NCBI GenBank assembly: GCA_905116865.2
Contig: CAJHNH020000547.1
Coordinates: 1-64,000, forward strand
Direction: 5' to 3'
DNA: 64,000 nt
Source of the DNA: Candidula unifasciata
Lineage: Eukaryota > Mollusca > Gastropoda > Stylommatophora > Geomitridae
Shown: positions 5,489-59,705 of the stretch, in pieces
Position numbering within the stretch: position 1 is the first letter of the stretch
How the letters are laid out: the number at the start of each line of letters is the position of its first letter
Position numbers and translations under genes: made by a program
The notes under the pieces: model-generated
Database searches by the model: none
The model's input: the letters and a program-made list of their open reading frames with translations, nothing else
What the model was told of the DNA's origin: nothing

Positions 5489-5516
5489 AACTTCTTCTTC
5501 CCTTCCACCTTTTACC

Positions 5517-6310
5517 TCATCGAAGTGTCGGGGGGGGGGGGGGATGTAATGTTCGTTGATGAGCTCTGTAAAGAGCACTATTAAGACTGATGTTCATTTC
5601 TGTAAGGCTGTTCTTAATGCCATCACTCCATATTTTCCGAGGTCTTCCACTCGCTCTATACCCATTGTAACGTTTTAGTGTGGCTCGCTGTGGTGAATAG
5701 TACCAGGGCATTCTTGTTAGGTGTCCAAACCACTTCATTTGTTGTTCTTTGATGACCTGTAAGACTGGCTTTATTCCTAGCATTTGTCTGATTTCATGAT
5801 TTGGTATTCTGTCTTTCCTCGAAACTCCTGCAGCTCTTCTAAGGCATTTCATCTCTGTTGTCACAATTTTACGTTCATTGGAGGATGTAAGTGTCCACGT
5901 TTGGCATTGATAGCATAGTGTTGGTCAAAAAATAGTTTTGATAAGATTTACTTTAGTACTCTGAGGTATCTGCTTGTGCGTCAACAGGGGAGATAGTTGA
6001 CCCAATACTTGATTAGCTTTGGCACATCTGGAGCTAATTTATCTGTCCAGTTTTCTGTCAGATGTAAAAAATGCTCCTGAATACTTAAATTCCTCTGTTT
6101 GTCTAAGGGTGTTGTTTTTTAATTTAATTTCTAAATTGTCTTTATGTCTTCCTAACATCATTGTCTCTGTCTTCGTAGTGTTTATTTTCATATTATATTC
6201 CTCCCCTTTGTTACTAATTTGATTTAGGTGGTTCTGTAGGCATTCCGTATTTTCTGCTATGAGTACCTGGTCGTCGGCGAAGAGTAATTCTGTAACATCT
6301 TCTTCTGTAA
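5517..6310 (-). pseudogene. RTE reverse transcriptase C-terminal remnant
   Basis: On the minus strand the open part (5864 to 5517) reads VTTEMKCLRRAAGVSRKDR, then MKWFGHLTRM and GRPRKIWSDGIKNSL, the standard C-terminal region of RTE-clade reverse transcriptases. Interrupted pieces up to about 6310 include FADD-type residues, a KTET segment and LCYQCQTWTLT. It is 5'-truncated and broken. A close relative of its 3' end lies at 59450-59705. Confidence 0.75.
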
Positions 6311-19440: not shown

Positions 19441-19482
19441 GACTTTTATTATGTAATGCCCATGTAGAAAACATCCTGTCCT

Positions 19483-20804
19483 TCTTCTTCTTCGTTCACC
19501 GGCTGTGAATTCCGGTGGAAGGTCCCGGTTAATCGTCCGCTTGGACTTTTGTCTTTTACCTGGACCTGAGTTTTGCGTGTACAACCGTTTTGTTGTTCCC
19601 TGCCTCATGGGCAGCTGTACTCCGACTTCGGGGGAAGACGTCAGACCGATTTCTAGGATGACTGTGGCCATTGTTTTGTGTGGGTCGAGACGTTACCTGA
19701 TTTGTGTGGTGTCCACTTTGTCTCCTTCCCTGCAGGTATTGCCCCGGAGTACCCCTTTGGGGCAGCCCCCTGTGGAACGGTTGGCCCTCAAGGGAAGGCA
19801 GGGCCAGATCATGGGCATTCCCTGCCATCCAAGGAGGCTTCCATTTTTGCAGAGCCGGCACATGGCGCTCTGGTTCTGGGCTCACCCAAGGAATCGTCAC
19901 GTCCTGCACATGCCTGCTTGACCTCACAACCGTATTAGGCCTCCCGCTCGACAAGGGCTGCGCCCTCTGGAAGTCAGCGGGGAGCAGCCCGCAAATTCTG
20001 GACTTTTGTGACCACCCAAATAGGTACATTCTTTTTCTTCGCACGTTAGGTATCTTTGACGAGCCGTTAGCCCGACAAAATTCAACATTCTGCGTCAGGC
20101 ATATCGTTATCTGTTTGGTCCCAGCACTAGGGAGAGTGGGGTCTTTTGGTGTGGACATTTGGACTTTTTCCATTCAATACGATTTGTGATGATAAGATTT
20201 TGAGCTTACTCGTGTTACGTGGGTTCTAGTTTTGTTGGACATTTAGGCTTAGCCAGCCGATGGATGGTTGCTGTCTTGGTGTACCTCAGCGCGGTGACGA
20301 CAACACTGAGGGTTAACAGAGGATGTACATGGGTAGAATCTTGCTGCGAGACGCCACCCACAGGAGATGTTACTCGTCTGTGCTGCGGGTAAATCTCTAG
20401 GTCAAGGGTTGAGTCTCAGCAGAACAATGTTCTCTTCACTCCCCATTCTTTTAACCAAGGGTTGTAATTTTAGTTGTACATTCGGCAAGCACTTTACTCA
20501 TGTTCCTAATGAGTTTTGATAACCTTTTTCACCCATGCGTTTGGGGGCGGGCTGATGAGAGCCACAAGGACACATCACCTCTGAGGGCCGCCAAACTCCG
20601 AGATCCCCTGACAGCTCTGTTAATGCTCACTTGAGACATTATCCGTAGCGCACGATGAGGACGTGCTGCAGGGGTCTTGCGTGAGGTTCCGTACAACCAG
20701 AACAGTGAAGGACTGGCGCCCGAGTGACGTACGGAGTATCTCCTTATACCCATCATGTTGGACTTAACTTTCCCTCACGCCTGTGACATAAATCACCGCG
20801 CCAC
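19483..20804 (-). mobile_element. 1.32-kb GAA-tailed retroposon, SINE-B relative
   Basis: The block is bounded by a perfect 12-bp duplication ACATCCTGTCCT (19471-19482 and 20805-20816). On the minus strand it ends with the SINE-B 3' module ('gaagtcggagtacagctgcc' to 'cacagccggtgaacg') and GAAGAAGAAG. The rest (20804 down to about 19700) has no SINE-B match, is GC- and CpG-rich, and resembles only 45440-45700. Removing the block rejoins an RTE fragment (tcctgtcct-gaaagctgaggtac). No reverse transcriptase is present, so it must have been moved by enzymes from elsewhere. It has one long minus-strand frame (see next). Confidence 0.85.
19556..20173 (-). CDS. 205-aa ORF in the 1.32-kb retroposon, unknown
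   Basis: An uninterrupted minus-strand frame starts MEKVQMSTPKDPTLP and ends VVHAKLRSR. It is rich in Pro, Arg, Ser and His and has no motif I recognise. The last third lies in the SINE-B 3' module, and the copy at 37276-37461 ends in the same peptide VVHAKLRSR. It overlaps open frames on the other strand, as GC-rich DNA often does, so coding status is uncertain. Confidence 0.3.
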   Translation of the reverse strand: MEKVQMSTPKDPTLPSAGTKQITICLTQNVEFCRANGSSKIPNVRRKRMYLFGWSQKSRICGLLPADFQRAQPLSSGRPNTVVRSSRHVQDVTIPWVSPEPERHVPALQKWKPPWMAGNAHDLALPSLEGQPFHRGLPQRGTPGQYLQGRRQSGHHTNQVTSRPTQNNGHSHPRNRSDVFPRSRSTAAHEAGNNKTVVHAKLRSR

Positions 20805-20816
20805 ACATCCTGTCCT

Positions 20817-20962: not shown

Positions 20963-21130
20963 ATCCCCCTGTGGGATGCAATTTTTCGATATTTTGAAGC
21001 CCCACCCTGGCTCTTGCCAGGGGCCGCAATACAGCCCAGCCATAGATATGGTCTGGTGGCTGAACGCGGTTTTCCGGACCTCTCCACTGGTGATCCTCAT
21101 CCGCATGGTGGCACATTATGTCACTAAAAT
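20963..21130 (+). repeat. Repeat family C copy
   Basis: Contains 'gatgcaatttttcgatattt', 'gaagccccaccctggctctt' and 'gatcctcatccgcatggtgg', close to the copy at 30598. The 3' tail is missing or replaced by TACTACTACTAATAATAATA. Confidence 0.6.
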
Positions 21131-30597: not shown

Positions 30598-30830
30598 GTC
30601 CCCATGTGGAATGCAATTTTTCAATATTTGAAGCCCCACCCTAGCTTTTGCCAGGGGCCCTAATTATAACCAGGTCATAAATATAGTCTAATGACTGAAT
30701 GATTTTTCTGAGACCTCTCCACGGGTGATCCTCATCCGCATGGTGGCACATTGTGTCATTGGGTGTTTATCGCTTTGTGTAATGTCCTGGTGGGGTACAA
30801 CTTACATAGATACATACATACATATTGTTG
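30598..30830 (+). repeat. Repeat family C copy, best preserved
   Basis: Runs from 'ccccatgtggaatgcaattt' through 'ttgaagccccaccctagctt' and 'gatcctcatccgcatggtgg' to 'gtcctggtggggtacaactt' and ends in ATAC/TACA tetranucleotides. This gives the family length of about 230 bp with a microsatellite tail. Confidence 0.6.
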
Positions 30831-37275: not shown

Positions 37276-37540
37276 ATGTCCCTGGGAGTGGTAGTCGTGC
37301 ATTGTAAAGCTGTCTTTATGCATAGCCACGCTAGACACTTGCCAGGAGCCTCCCACTATTGGAGCCCCATTTCCCTCGAAGTCGGAGTACATCTGCCTGT
37401 GAGGCAGTTAACGGCAAAAGCCAGTAAAACGGTTGTACACGCAAAACTCAGGTCCAGGTAAAAGCCCAAAGTCCAAGCGGACGATTAACCGGGACCTTCC
37501 GCTGGAATTCATAGCCGGTGAACAAAGAAGAAGAAGAAGG
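37276..37540 (+). repeat. SINE-B 3' module with a different head
   Basis: From 'ccctcgaagtcggagtacat' to 'gccggtgaacaaagaagaag' the sequence is nearly the same as the 3' end of the 1.32-kb element, including the frame VVHAKLRSR. The upstream part (37276-37370) matches neither the short SINE-B head nor the long element. Confidence 0.65.
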
Positions 37541-41236: not shown

Positions 41237-41295
41237 AGTGCCAATTCTTCTTTCTTTTGTCAAAATCTGCTTGTGCCGCTAGGCGTCGCAGTCTA

Positions 41296-43157: not shown

Positions 43158-44423
43158 TTACTTTATCATTCCACCATGCTGTTTTTTTTTCCTGAACGTT
43201 CCTCCTGTGTATCTAATACCACAGAGTGTTGTTAGGCAGTTCAGAAGAGTGTTCTTAAATTTTTGCCACGCAGCTTCCACATTGTCACTTGATGTTATTA
43301 GCTCAGCCATCTTCGCCGTCATTTCTGCCTGTACTTTTGCTTGGTTGTCTAGATTGCTTAAGTGTCTTATGTCAATCATTGAGGTACGTACTGATGTTTT
43401 TGGTTTTTTGTTAATTGTTGCTTCGCTTAGATATACGATCAGCGGTCGATGGTCTGTATTTAAAGAGATGTTAGGAATTACTCTTGCGTCTTTTACTAAG
43501 CTTCTTCTCTTTTGTCGATTTAGTATGTAGTCCAACTGTGCGGCCTGGTCTGGGTTGCTCCATTTATACCAGGTATTTATTTGGCTTTGTCGATGCTGAT
43601 AGAAACTATTGGTGACATAAAGGCCATGCTCTGCACAAAGTTCTAAAATACGCTGCCCGTTGTAATTGCAGACTTTGCTGTTGTCTGAGTGTGGCCCCAT
43701 ATATTCCTCCCACGGTGTTCGCCTCTGCCCTATATGCCCATTTAGGTCACCTATTACCATAAGATCATCATTTGCGTGTATCTGACTGATGACAACCGAC
43801 ACTGAGTCAAAGAAGTTATCTTTCTCTTCCAAGGTGTAACCATCATTGTTGGGTGCGTATACCTGCACAATGCTTGTATTTCTTGTTTTCCCGTAGAGTT
43901 GCAATACTATAATCCTTTCAGATACATATTCTATATTCTTTACATGTTTAGCGATATCCGGATGGAGAATAAAACTGACTCCGTGAGTCGCTCTCTGCTC
44001 TTTCTTAACGCCGCTCCAAAATATGACATAGTTGTTATGAATTTCTTTTGTTATGTTGCCTTTTTTCCTGCAATCTGATATTCCCATTATATCGATCTTA
44101 TGTTTCATCATGAACTCTACTATTTCTGGTTCTTTATTTGTAAGACCACAAACATTCCATGTTCCGATTTTTGTCGCTTGGCTAGTTTGTTTACAATGAG
44201 TGAGAGATGGCTGACCTGTTCTCGAGCCCTGATTGTTGTTACGTTTGATGGATTTTCTAATCTCGTATATTGTTTCTAGAGCAGATTTTTGTGAACTCTT
44301 AAATCCACTGCCGATTTGCTGGACCTGACACAGATTCATCCTTAAGAGAACACTGGAAAACACGTAATTCACATTGAGAACACTGAAAAATTTCACACCG
44401 GTTGAATAACACACACTGGACAA
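43158..44423 (-). pseudogene. RTE copy 1 endonuclease part
   Basis: 421 residues. KIGTWNVCGLTN carries the first catalytic Asn. The usual Glu position reads MGISDCRKKG, so Asp replaces Glu. QVYAPNND, VIGDLNGHIGQRR (Asp, Asn) and NTDHRPLI (Asp-His) complete the exonuclease/endonuclease/phosphatase fold. The frame leaves the RT frame at an A-run (KKKQHGG instead of the expected KKTAWWND), so a one-base indel separates the two. The start at 44423 is only 24 bases from the 5' TSD. Confidence 0.9.
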
Positions 44424-44659
44424 ATTGGAGTCACCTGGCTACTCCACAGTGCCAATTGATGTATAAAAATATGGCACGGGCAACAAATGCTTAGTATTAC
44501 GCATCATGTCAACAGAACCTCACTGCCTATAGAATTGCTTAACGCTATATGCAAAGGTGAAAAGTATTGATGTCATTTGCTACCTACTATGTTATAATAT
44601 ACCAACGATTTCATGATGATTTGTTACAATTGTTTCTTCATTTATAAATGGTTCCATGT

Positions 44660-45439: not shown

Positions 45440-45700
45440 TTTGTAACCTCATATGTGTGGTGATTTCATCATTCACTGATCTACAGGTTTTTCCCCTAGA
45501 GATGCTGTCCAGGCCAACTGTGTGCAGCTTGGTTGACTCTCAATGGAAAGCAGGGGCAGAACATGGCATTCCCCACCATCCAAGGAGGCTTCAATAATAA
45601 TTCAACACCCAAAGACAAATATAATAAATGTCTGAATGGCTTGGCCATGTGGCATGGGTGGGACAAGACACCAGACCTATCGTGGGATTCTTTTGCTCAC
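45440..45700 (+). repeat. Internal fragment related to the 1.32-kb retroposon
   Basis: 'ggttgactctcaatggaaag', 'caggggcagaacatggcatt' and 'ccatccaaggaggcttcaat' match 19780-19850. It shows that the non-SINE-B part of the 1.32-kb element is itself repeated. No SINE-B module is attached. Confidence 0.6.
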
Positions 45701-52717: not shown

Positions 52718-54082
52718 TTACTTAGTCGCTCCTCTTCTACCTTGGGGTGTAGAGGTTTGCCAGAGAGATCGCCAGACGTCTCTATCAACAGTTTTCTTTC
52801 TGGCTTTGTTCCATTCCAGTCCTCTGTCAGTCAGGGACTGTCGGATGTTGTCTTCCCAGCGCACCCTGGGTCGTCCCGGAGGTCTGGTTCCCTGGTTCTT
52901 AGCCTCCCATGCTTGCCATGGTGGCCGATTTTCTCCCATTCTGCACACATGTCCAAACCATCGTAACTGTGACTGATCCACTCGGGTTAGTAAGGGCTGG
53001 GTATCAAGATCTTGACGTATTGTCAGATTGCGGACTTTGTCCCTTCTTGTCACTTGGACCACCTTTCTCAGGTATCTCATTTCCGAGGCCTGCAGCTGGC
53101 TTCTGTGAGCTGTTGTCATTGCCCATGACTCACACCCATAGGTCAGGACTGGTACATAGGTAGAGCGGTAAACAGCCATTTTCGTCCTCTTGCCAATTTC
53201 TCTTTTGCTAAGAAACCCTCGGTTTATGGCCTGGAAGAGTCTCCCAGCAGCTGCTTTTCGTGTAGCCAGCTCAGTCTTAATGCCTCCATTTTGGTCTAAT
53301 ACAACTCCAAGGTATTTGAACTGGTTAACCTGCTCCAACTCATACTGACCCATCATGATCTGGTGTTTCTTCTCCTCTCTTGAGATCACCATGGTTTTAG
53401 TTTTGGAGACACTGATGGTCATCCCTTTCTTTTCAAGCTCTTCCTTCCAGACAAGTAAGTTAGACTGAAGGTGTGCCTCTGATTTAGCTATCAGGGCCAC
53501 ATCGTCTGCAAAAGCCAGCTCTGATATACAGATTGGTCTCATCTTCCAGTACCCTACAGAGTACTTTTTTGTCTTCTCCTTACAGGTCTTGATGACATCA
53601 TCCATCATAAGAATGAAGAGGTAAGGTGAGAGAATATCACCTTGTCTAACACCGCTGGTGGTCTTAAATTCTTCTCACTTTTGGTCTGCTGTTCTTACAT
53701 AATTTCTGCACTTTTTGTAGAAACTCTGTATTGCACTGATCAGGGGTGCTGGGATGTTTTTCCCTGCCAAGCAGTCCCAGAGCTTGTTCCAGGGTACCTT
53801 GTCAAATGCCTTTTCCAGATCCAAAAAACATAAGTGAATCTCACTCTTATATTCCAGGGCTTTTTCACTCATCTGTCTCAGTGTGAAGATAAGGTCTTGA
53901 GTACTTCGGTTTGCTCTGAAGCCGCACTGGGCCTCGTCCAGCTGTGGCTCTACCAGACTTCTAAGTCTCTGCTCAAGAATTCTAGAGTAACTTTTACCGG
54001 GAATGCTGAGGAGGGATATGCCTCTGTGGTTTTCACATTGTCTGTTATCACCTTTTTTTAAATATAGGTATAATGATGGCAA
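52718..54082 (-). pseudogene. RTE copy 2 reverse transcriptase part
   Basis: One frame with a single stop at 53675-53677. In order: KKGDNRQCENHRGISLLSIP, LEQRLRSLVEPQLDEAQCGF, motif A FLDLEKAFDKVPWNKLW, (stop), TSGVRQGDILSPYLF, ELAFADDVALIAKSEAHLQ with the Asp-Asp pair, QFKYLGVVLDQNGGIKTELA, TYGCESWAMTTAHR, LRWFGHVCRMGE, GTRPPGRPRVRWEDNIRQSL and a short end with QTSTPQGRRGATK. RT and RTE motifs are otherwise complete. Confidence 0.93.
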
Positions 54083-55616
54083 TCTCCCAATCTTTTGGTA
54101 TAGTTTTGCTACACCAGGCTGCCTGGAGAACCTTCAGTAGAAGGCGCTCACCTTCGACTCCCATATATTTGACCATCTCTGGTGTTATACCATCATGACC
54201 TGCTGCTTTTCCCAGCTTAATCTTCTCAATAGCTGCCTTCAATTCTTCCATCCTGATGTTATCTTCCCCATGATTGAATTCCTTCTCAGCAGTGAGGTCC
54301 ATTATTTCTGGGTCATGACTTCCCTCAGCGCCGAGGAGCTCTGAGAAGTATTCTTTCCATCTGCCCATGATATCATTTGTAGAAGTAAGCAGAGCCCCTT
54401 CCTTGTCTTTTATGAATTTAAGTGGGCACTCTCTCTCCTTCCTCATGTTCTTAAGGGTCTTGTAGAACAGTTTTTGGTTTTCTCTTGCATTCTTTTCCAA
54501 CTTTTCTCCAAACTCTTCCCATGATTTCTGTTTTGCTTTAAGCACAATATTTTTGGTCTCTGTTCTGAGTGCCACATATTGTTTATATTTTTCTATTTCT
54601 TCAGCTGTGTTCCTGGCTGCCAGGTATTGCTTCCATGCCCTTTTCTTTTCTCCTATTTTCAATTTGACTTCTTCTGTCCACCAAGGTGTCCTATGTCCCC
54701 GCCTTCCACTTGAGACTTCACCACATGCTTCTACTGCAGCTGCTGTGAGGATATTCTTGAATCTGCACCAGAGAGTTTCAGTGTCCTCTGATGATTCTTC
54801 TTCAGTTCCTATTGCTTTCACTATAAGCTCCTGGTATCTAGCCTTAATATCTGGCTCTCTTAGCTTGTATGCTTTAATCCTCATCCCTTCTTGGTTGCTT
54901 GGTTTCTTGCATAGTTGTCGGTGTTGCCTTGTTGGAGCAGTTCTTTCAGTTGTTCTCTTTATTGTGACCAGATAGTGGTCACTTCCAATCTCTGGTCCTC
55001 TCATGACTCTGGCATCTCTCACAAACTTGAATGAACTTTTCCTAACTATGGCGTAGTCAATGATGGATTTTTCATTCTTTGAAGGTTCATATCTTGTGTA
55101 TGCATGTATACGCTTGTGGGGGAATTTTGTGTTTGTAATGACAAGGTTCTGTTCCCTGCAGAATCTGAGAAGTCGCTTGCCATTATCATTCAAAACATCT
55201 TCACCATATCTCCCGATCACTCCACCCCATCTAGAGTGATCATTTCCTACTCTGGCATTTAGATCTCCTAGGAGGATAATTTCATCGTGACAGTCATCTA
55301 TGGTCTTTTGGAGCAGTTCAAAGAATTCTTCTTTAACATCTACTCGCTCACCTTCATTTGGCCCGTACACAATGACAAAATTGACAATTTTATCTTCTTC
55401 TTTCAGATCTAACACCATTATTCGCTCTGAGATGAATTTCCATCCCTTGATGTTACTAACTTGATTCCTGGCCACAATACAGCCAACACCTCCCTTGGCT
55501 CTCTCCGTCATAGGGACACCACTGTAGAGCAGCATACTTCCATCGTGATCTGTGATTCCTTGCCCCTTTTTCTTGGTTTCAGTCAGAGCCAAGACTCCTA
55601 ATTTTGCTTTCCTCAT
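54048..55616 (-). pseudogene. RTE copy 2 endonuclease and RT N-terminus
   Basis: 522 residues from MRKAKLGVLALTETKKKGQG, where Glu of the endonuclease site is kept. Upstream of this Met the same frame stays open to about 55757 and encodes YGTWNIRGINGKENELV, the first catalytic motif, so the real start is upstream and perhaps not ATG. Later motifs: VIVYGPNEGER, LLGDLNARVGNDH, GSDHYLV, then EFGEKLEKNARENQKLFYKT, GKAAGHDGITPEMVKYMG and IIPIFKK at the frameshift. Confidence 0.92.
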
Positions 55617-55949
55617 CTCCCCTACTAATTCGTTTTCCTTTCCGTTAATGCCTCTTATATTCCATGTTCCATAAATCGTAGTCCGTAAGCCATGCCAGTT
55701 CGTCGCCGTTAAGATCCGTCCGGTTTTCTCTCTGTAGTTACTTGTAATCGTGGTTTAAGGCAAACAGGTGATTGGCCTGTTGTGCCTTTGCATGGTGGAG
55801 GGGCTGCCTCCTTGCGGCCTCCATGCAGGCCGTCTGGCTGATTCACGGTTACCCACTACTTCCGGAGACGCATGAAGCACTCAGGTTCAGCCAGACCCTC
55901 CTCCTTTTACAGCCGGGCTTGGGACCGGTCTTAGCGGAGTTATGTTATA

Positions 55950-59234: not shown

Positions 59235-59449
59235 CATGGTGTTATTAGATTATTGTAGATATACAGGCTTTAAATCTGTTGGCACCAACGGGTTTAGCAT
59301 CAGAGGATCAAGCGGGTTAATGATATTTAGAAATTTGAGGAGTGTAACACATTAAAAAAGACCATGCTAATTAAGCTGCTGTGCAGGATACACATGTTAT
59401 ATATACATCAAGGTGACCAGGAAATGTTGAAGAATAATATTGAATCTTC

Positions 59450-59705
59450 TTCTTCTTCTCTTACATCTTGTACCTCAGAGAAGTGTCTGGGGATGATGTA
59501 ACATTCATTCATGAGCTCTGTCAAGAGCACTGTTAAGACTGATGTTTAATTTTGTAAGGCTGTTCTTAATGCCATCACTCCATATTTTCCAAGGTCTTCC
59601 ACTCATTCTATACCCGTTGTAACGTTTTAGTGTGGCTTGCTATGGCAGATAGTACCAGGGCATTCTTGTTAGGTGTCCAGACCACTTCATTTGTTGTTGA
59701 ATACT
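59450..59705 (-). mobile_element. RTE 3' end, sister of 5517-5760
   Basis: 'atgatgtaacattcattcat', 'gagctctgtcaagagcactg', 'ctccatattttccaaggtct' and 'gttaggtgtccagaccactt' are nearly the same as 5540-5745. A 5'-truncated copy of the same RTE subfamily with a TTC tail at its left. Confidence 0.7.

Follow-up and report, generated by a model that had tools for sequence, protein, structure and literature searches.

A retroposon of 1322 nt lies at positions 19483..20804 (minus strand) of the window, the 64,000-nt stretch of Candidula unifasciata DNA analyzed here, and represents a family that is probably noncoding and non-autonomous, 1.3-1.4 kb long, GAA-tailed, dependent on a LINE and copied by target-primed reverse transcription. 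The copies that we read have fixed ends, target-site duplications (TSDs), a common insertion-site motif and a GAA tail; the family is present in high copy number and has neither a conserved reading frame nor a reverse transcriptase (RT).

The element reads on the minus strand, with its 5' end at 20804 and its GAA tail at 19483, and other copies begin and end at the identical bases. The 12 bp ACATCCTGTCCT occur without a mismatch as a direct repeat on either side of the window copy, at 20805..20816 (5' side) and 19471..19482 (3' side). The first-pass annotation had described a GAA-tailed retroposon of 1.32 kb with a perfect 12-bp TSD, and both the direct repeat and the ends common to the copies bear this out; the boundary at 20804, which it had singled out for checking, is the base at which copies elsewhere start. 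The 5' terminus common to the copies, GTGGCGCGGTGATTTATGTCACAGGCG, occupies 20778..20804 (minus strand), and the (GAA)n tail occupies 19483..19493 (minus strand) and varies in length among other copies. GAA-type tails are visible in the flanks of the copies read, a few of them imperfect (L026, L041). The consensus is 1323 nt long. As had been noted from the sequence, the element is rich in GC and CpG relative to its surroundings: its GC content is 51.6% versus 39.3% for the window, and its CpG observed/expected ratio (O/E) is 0.70 versus 0.40. A separate repeat family is represented nearby by 20964-21123 and 30599-30758 (83% identical to each other), the former followed by a TACTAC/TAATAA-type tail.

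We searched the 1.34-Gb genome assembly (7176 contigs) and examined 40 copies, namely the window copy and 39 loci fetched with their flanks, these being the best-scoring of 4872 candidates. Many of these best 40 span the element from first to last base at 87-96% identity to the window copy. Full-length copies, defined as starting no more than 10 nt from the 5' end and ending at nt 1310 or later, made up 34 of the 40, a proportion biased upward because the best-scoring matches were chosen; the check for full-length copies across the genome that had been proposed from the window alone thus came out positive. The other six (L035, L042, L043, L044, L045 and L046) are truncated or rearranged, and at L045 (contig C4949) several pieces of the element in both orientations are clustered within 7 kb. 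At one further locus, L018 (around 920-1590), an element copy apparently sits inside an RT coding region of a LINE.

To count ends across the whole assembly, we used two 27-mers with up to 3 mismatches. The 5'-end probe gave 1768 matches and an element-specific probe near the 3' end gave 1877, and the reversed control of each gave 0. The outcome named at the outset as speaking against a retroposon family, namely that this 5' end would occur nowhere else, was therefore not what we found. With the two ends counted unpaired, the ratio of 5' to near-3' matches is 0.94, which hints at completeness of most copies. We also paired the zero-mismatch matches listed for the two probes as far as contig C502: for 36 of 61 near-3' places, a zero-mismatch match to the 5' probe lay no more than 2.5 kb upstream on that strand. 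At least three of the 25 unpaired near-3' places (C146, C289 and C391) are fetched full-length copies, indicating that mismatches account for part of the unpaired places. The spacing between the probes was 1127-1131 nt in 13 of the 36 pairs and 1082 nt in the window copy; the most frequent class among these pairs accordingly exceeds the window copy by about 46 nt.

TSDs of at least 10 nt with no more than one mismatch were found in 28 of the 36 copies with a preserved 5' end (starting no more than 10 nt from it), versus 1 of 1260 mispaired flanks used as a control. One of the 28, at L027, is doubtful, as it is sited in GAA repeats; among the eight copies in which the script found no TSD, one (L021) has a TSD apparent by eye. 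With L027 left out, TSD lengths were 11-13 nt in 22 of 27, and the 27 sites shared the insertion motif T(T/C) before A/G: base -2 was T in 22, base -1 was a pyrimidine (T or C) in 25, and the TSD opened with a purine (A or G) in 26, against a background around the sites of 0.31 for T and 0.49 for A plus G. When flanks of up to 300 nt on each side were compared, three same-strand pairs alone passed E 1e-20, two of which involve rearranged copies; the copies are therefore separate insertions. Sharp ends and TSDs are also what a DNA transposon, or another element not copied through RNA, would leave. In the window copy, however, terminal inverted repeats were not found, and TSDs of 10-16 nt, together with a GAA tail that varies in length and is confined to one end, make this origin barely credible.

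The same data bear on whether the copies could be 5'-truncated remnants of a larger LINE that happen to stop near one site. The LINEs compared with the element for its 3' end were two, RTE-A and RTE-B (described below), which leaves such an origin some room. Truncation would scatter the 5' ends, whereas the copies read share their first base beside unrelated flanks; the 1768 matches to the 5' probe also fit a fixed start, the flanks having been read in the fetched copies only. We consider this origin highly improbable.

Divergence from the consensus was 1.7-5.5% in 33 full-length copies, many of which are only 2-3% away, and 10.4% in the remaining one, L047. The low divergence between copies supports recent activity of the family. 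CpG content, which the first-pass annotation had taken as a sign of youth, does not serve this purpose: L047, the oldest copy read, has the highest CpG O/E (0.82, versus 0.67-0.80 in the other 33 full-length copies), and CpG richness is therefore no clock.

The last part of the element, a module of about 155 nt at 19483..19637 (minus strand; approximately element nt 1168-1322), is shared with SINE-B, a short repeat of about 280 nt whose head is unrelated to the element. An nhmmer search of the window with a model of 34 copies picked up the tail in 15 further places, 10 of them at E<1e-5 and 5 more weakly (E 0.0045-0.027), and the module also recurs in the fetched loci. The 3' end had been reported as common to at least 15 short SINE-B copies; the sharing holds for the 10 strong matches, and the count of 15 is reached only when the 5 weak ones are included. 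A similar stem-loop beside the GAA repeat is predicted in the tails of both repeats. A third tail-bearing type, a short copy at 37326..37534 (plus strand), has a different head and the tail closest to that of the element (85% over 164 columns). Thus, SINE-B resembles the element in its last ~155 nt, the similar predicted stem-loop and the GAA tail, but differs in its unrelated head, its far shorter length and its more diverged copies (68-89% to a provisional consensus). The proposal that the element is the parent or a relative of the commonest repeat therefore stands with regard to the common tail, whereas parentage is not borne out, as no more than the last ~155 nt are common to both, the heads are unrelated and SINE-B is more diverged.

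We then analyzed the coding capacity of the family. The window copy carries a frame of 205 aa at 19556..20173 (minus strand), which is present in this copy only and is not a gene: its ATG is missing from the consensus, and the window copy has a 1-nt deletion. The open frame that had been noted is thus real in the window copy and is not a feature of the family. It had no match in Pfam or PDB. A frame of 168 aa in the consensus is intact down to its stop codon in 4 of 34 copies (read by hand). Substitutions over sites outside CpG at codon positions 1, 2 and 3 were 162/155, 210/148 and 183/147, respectively, and no third-position excess was found in this 168-aa frame. The test for purifying selection that had been suggested for the open frame accordingly gave a negative answer, with no codon-position bias and no constraint on the frame. 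The longest stop-to-stop frames of the consensus are 173 aa (sense) and 177 aa (antisense), and these lengths, together with the lack of a Pfam match to the 205-aa frame, agree with the earlier statement that the element has no RT.

No known RNA was recognized in the element: Rfam gave no match at E up to 5, and no tRNA was found in the window. Words resembling Pol III boxes at the 5' end score no better than those elsewhere. SINEs are roughly 0.1-0.6 kb long, and the element, at 1322 nt, exceeds this range. No ribozyme was recognized at the 5' end: there was no Rfam match, the fold of the first 132 nt was unremarkable against shuffles (z -0.80) and nothing convincing was seen by eye; diverged ribozymes can escape both the Rfam and the folding test.

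The lack of a conserved coding frame and the fixed 5' end would also suit processed lncRNA pseudogenes, retroposed from a single noncoding RNA gene of the host. The tail of the element is (GAA)n and not poly(A), however, and no AATAAA occurs in the consensus; moreover, the 3' module is common to SINE-B. In addition, the copies fall into two groups, set by hand from the identity ranking, that differ at 35 consensus positions, which suggests lasting amplification. A pseudogene origin is improbable in light of these features, and a LINE-dependent retroposon family remains the better account.

Two LINEs with GAA-type tails are the best candidates for the driver of such a family. RTE-A, at 41245 to about 44418-44448 (minus strand), was recognized by its RVT_1 domain (E 3.1e-37), its genome copies and its 3' ends, and is 3.2 kb long. 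RTE-B is a fragment at 5491..6305 (minus strand), recognized by its likeness to the RTE-A protein and by its 3' ends; a further piece of it lies at 59449-59698 (minus strand). We use 'RTE-like' for both as our reading of domain and length, not as a clade placement; a length of 3.2 kbp is given for RTE-BovB in PMC10294476. The genome search with RTE-A scored 96 matches including that of the window, the others having 91-99% protein identity, and five copies compared in DNA were ~99% identical. The 134-aa C-terminal piece of RTE-B scored 150 matches including its own, the others at 90-95% and many with equal scores. Both LINEs are young. A GAA-type tail was seen in 8 of 8 RTE-A 3' ends read, where it is short and partly imperfect, and in 10 of 11 RTE-B 3' ends read. 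Both flanks were examined in five RTE-A copies: C4330 has a TSD of 11 nt by script, C5595 and C6867 show matches of 8 and 7 nt, respectively, and C3600 has none; the window copy had none by script and one of 10 nt by eye. At its 5' end, the window RTE-A copy carries, by eye, an inverted stretch of ~30 nt derived from itself, as twin priming would leave. Another LINE, at 52721-55754 (minus strand), has an endonuclease and an RT and ends, by eye, in an AAGT-type repeat, not GAA.

These LINEs resemble the element in the GAA-type tail and, for some RTE-A copies, in short TSDs; they differ in encoding an RT and in the sequence that precedes GAA. The ~155-nt 3' module was absent from RTE-A and RTE-B, the two LINEs read at their 3' ends. 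Homology of the tails beyond GAA was rejected, as it was not significant by permutation of the last 40 nt (fractions of 0.34 for RTE-A and 0.08 for RTE-B; 0.95 and 0.79, respectively, in the local comparison). A SINE-B copy sits just 3' of the window RTE-A copy; because all 8 RTE-A 3' ends read finish with RTE-A sequence and a GAA-type tail, this SINE-B is separate and RTE-A was rejected as the donor of the tail. A LINE with the same 3' end as the element, or one containing the whole of it, had been proposed as something to look for, and neither was found in the two GAA-tailed LINEs read. An RTE-like driver is suggested by agreement in tail type, TSD size and youth, and not by sequence similarity.

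In size and noncoding state, the element would also fit an internally deleted derivative of one LINE, in which a 5' UTR was joined to a 3' UTR and the coding part was lost. A relic akin to element nt 960-1115 is found at 45442..45596 (minus strand; nhmmer E 1.9e-19, ~69% identity over 150 columns), and these 150 columns, which resemble element nt 961-1110, are situated upstream of the window RTE-A copy, as might be expected if the element derived from RTE-A. However, it lies about 1 kb past the point where the window RTE-A copy and C3600 cease to match, and outside the apparent TSD of the window copy as read by eye. Nor does it precede any of four other RTE-A copies, of which three have truncated 5' ends and C3600 alone is informative; the relic was rejected as an RTE-A 5' UTR on the strength of C3600 and the by-eye TSD of the window copy. 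An RTE-A 5'-end probe gave 85 matches in the genome. The 3' end of RTE-A also differs from that of the element. With 5' ends compared for RTE-A, derivation from one LINE is unlikely, although less so than the other alternatives considered here.

One truncated copy is joined to ribosomal RNA. At L043 (element at 1588-2713, upstream sequence to about 3300, minus strand), element nt 178-1322 is joined to 18S rRNA, of which ~135 nt, starting from its first base, precede element nt 178. The 18S part matched Rfam SSU_rRNA_eukarya at E 1.2e-28, the printed match running on into element sequence, and the GC-rich sequence upstream of it resembles a 5' ETS, for which we take it. No TSD was found for this chimera. 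One possible origin of this structure is a template jump, in which the reverse transcriptase moved from the RNA of the element onto pre-rRNA. The 18S sequence hinted at a gastropod, as did a homology search in which the best named hit among 120 listed of 2102 was from Elysia marginata (57%), with Branchiostoma at 56%; no COX1 match passed the cut-off.

We infer an RNA intermediate, target-primed copying and the identity of the driver from the features described above. In the LINE-dependent scheme, the RNA of the element would start at a fixed base (GTGGCGCGG...) and end in the predicted stem-loop plus (GAA)n. The enzyme of a LINE, most likely a GAA-tailed RTE-like LINE, would recognize this RNA end, nick the target at TT(T/C)|(A/G) and prime reverse transcription of the RNA from the nicked target, with duplications of 10-14 bp as the result. 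More tentatively, the element may be an invertebrate counterpart of SVA: a kilobase-long noncoding RNA of which an RTE-type LINE nearly always makes complete copies, recognizing its terminal stem-loop plus (GAA)n, an end captured by several unrelated heads (those of SINE-B, of the short copy at 37.5 kb and of the element). We regard this broader reading as possible, with the balance leaning against it.

The SVA and LAVA elements of hominoids are composite retrotransposons that are large, noncoding, non-autonomous and LINE-driven, with TSDs and high copy number. The element appears comparable to them in size class, noncoding and non-autonomous state, TSDs and high copy number, but differs in lacking a tandem-repeat array (Tandem Repeats Finder returned 0 rows for the window copy) and in having (GAA)n instead of poly(A). 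The driver of SVA and LAVA is L1, whereas that of the element is apparently RTE-like; the comparison is one of features, and no sequence kinship is expected. EhSINE1 of Entamoeba and SIDER/RIME of trypanosomatids are non-autonomous LINE partners that are larger than typical SINEs, at about 0.5 kb. By description, the element would resemble them as a non-autonomous LINE partner larger than typical SINEs and differs in that they are from protists and about 0.5 kb long, versus 1.3 kb here. EhSINE1 and the SIDER/RIME retroposons are treated in PMC2996970 and PMC2323293. To our knowledge, few noncoding retroposons reach a large size, and those that have been studied well come from primates. The SINEs of a curated set described in PMC10294476, which is limited to bivalves, are 174-404 bp long; the element is likewise non-autonomous and without coding capacity but is more than three times as long as the longest one listed and has no clear Pol III promoter. 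The main text of a paper on gastropod LINEs (PMC11203168) contains no match for 'GAA' or 'non-autonomous', and no comparable large GAA-tailed noncoding retroposon was found in the literature searched, a comparison that lay outside Repbase and Dfam. Elements of this kind are known; the novelty lies in the size, the tail and the apparent completeness of the copies.

With ~1,800 probe matches that apparently represent mostly complete copies of 1.3 kb, the family would show that an invertebrate LINE enzyme copies long foreign RNAs in full. Because many copies are so close to the consensus, they may serve as insertion markers, and a comparison of the heads joined to one tail could reveal what the enzyme needs.
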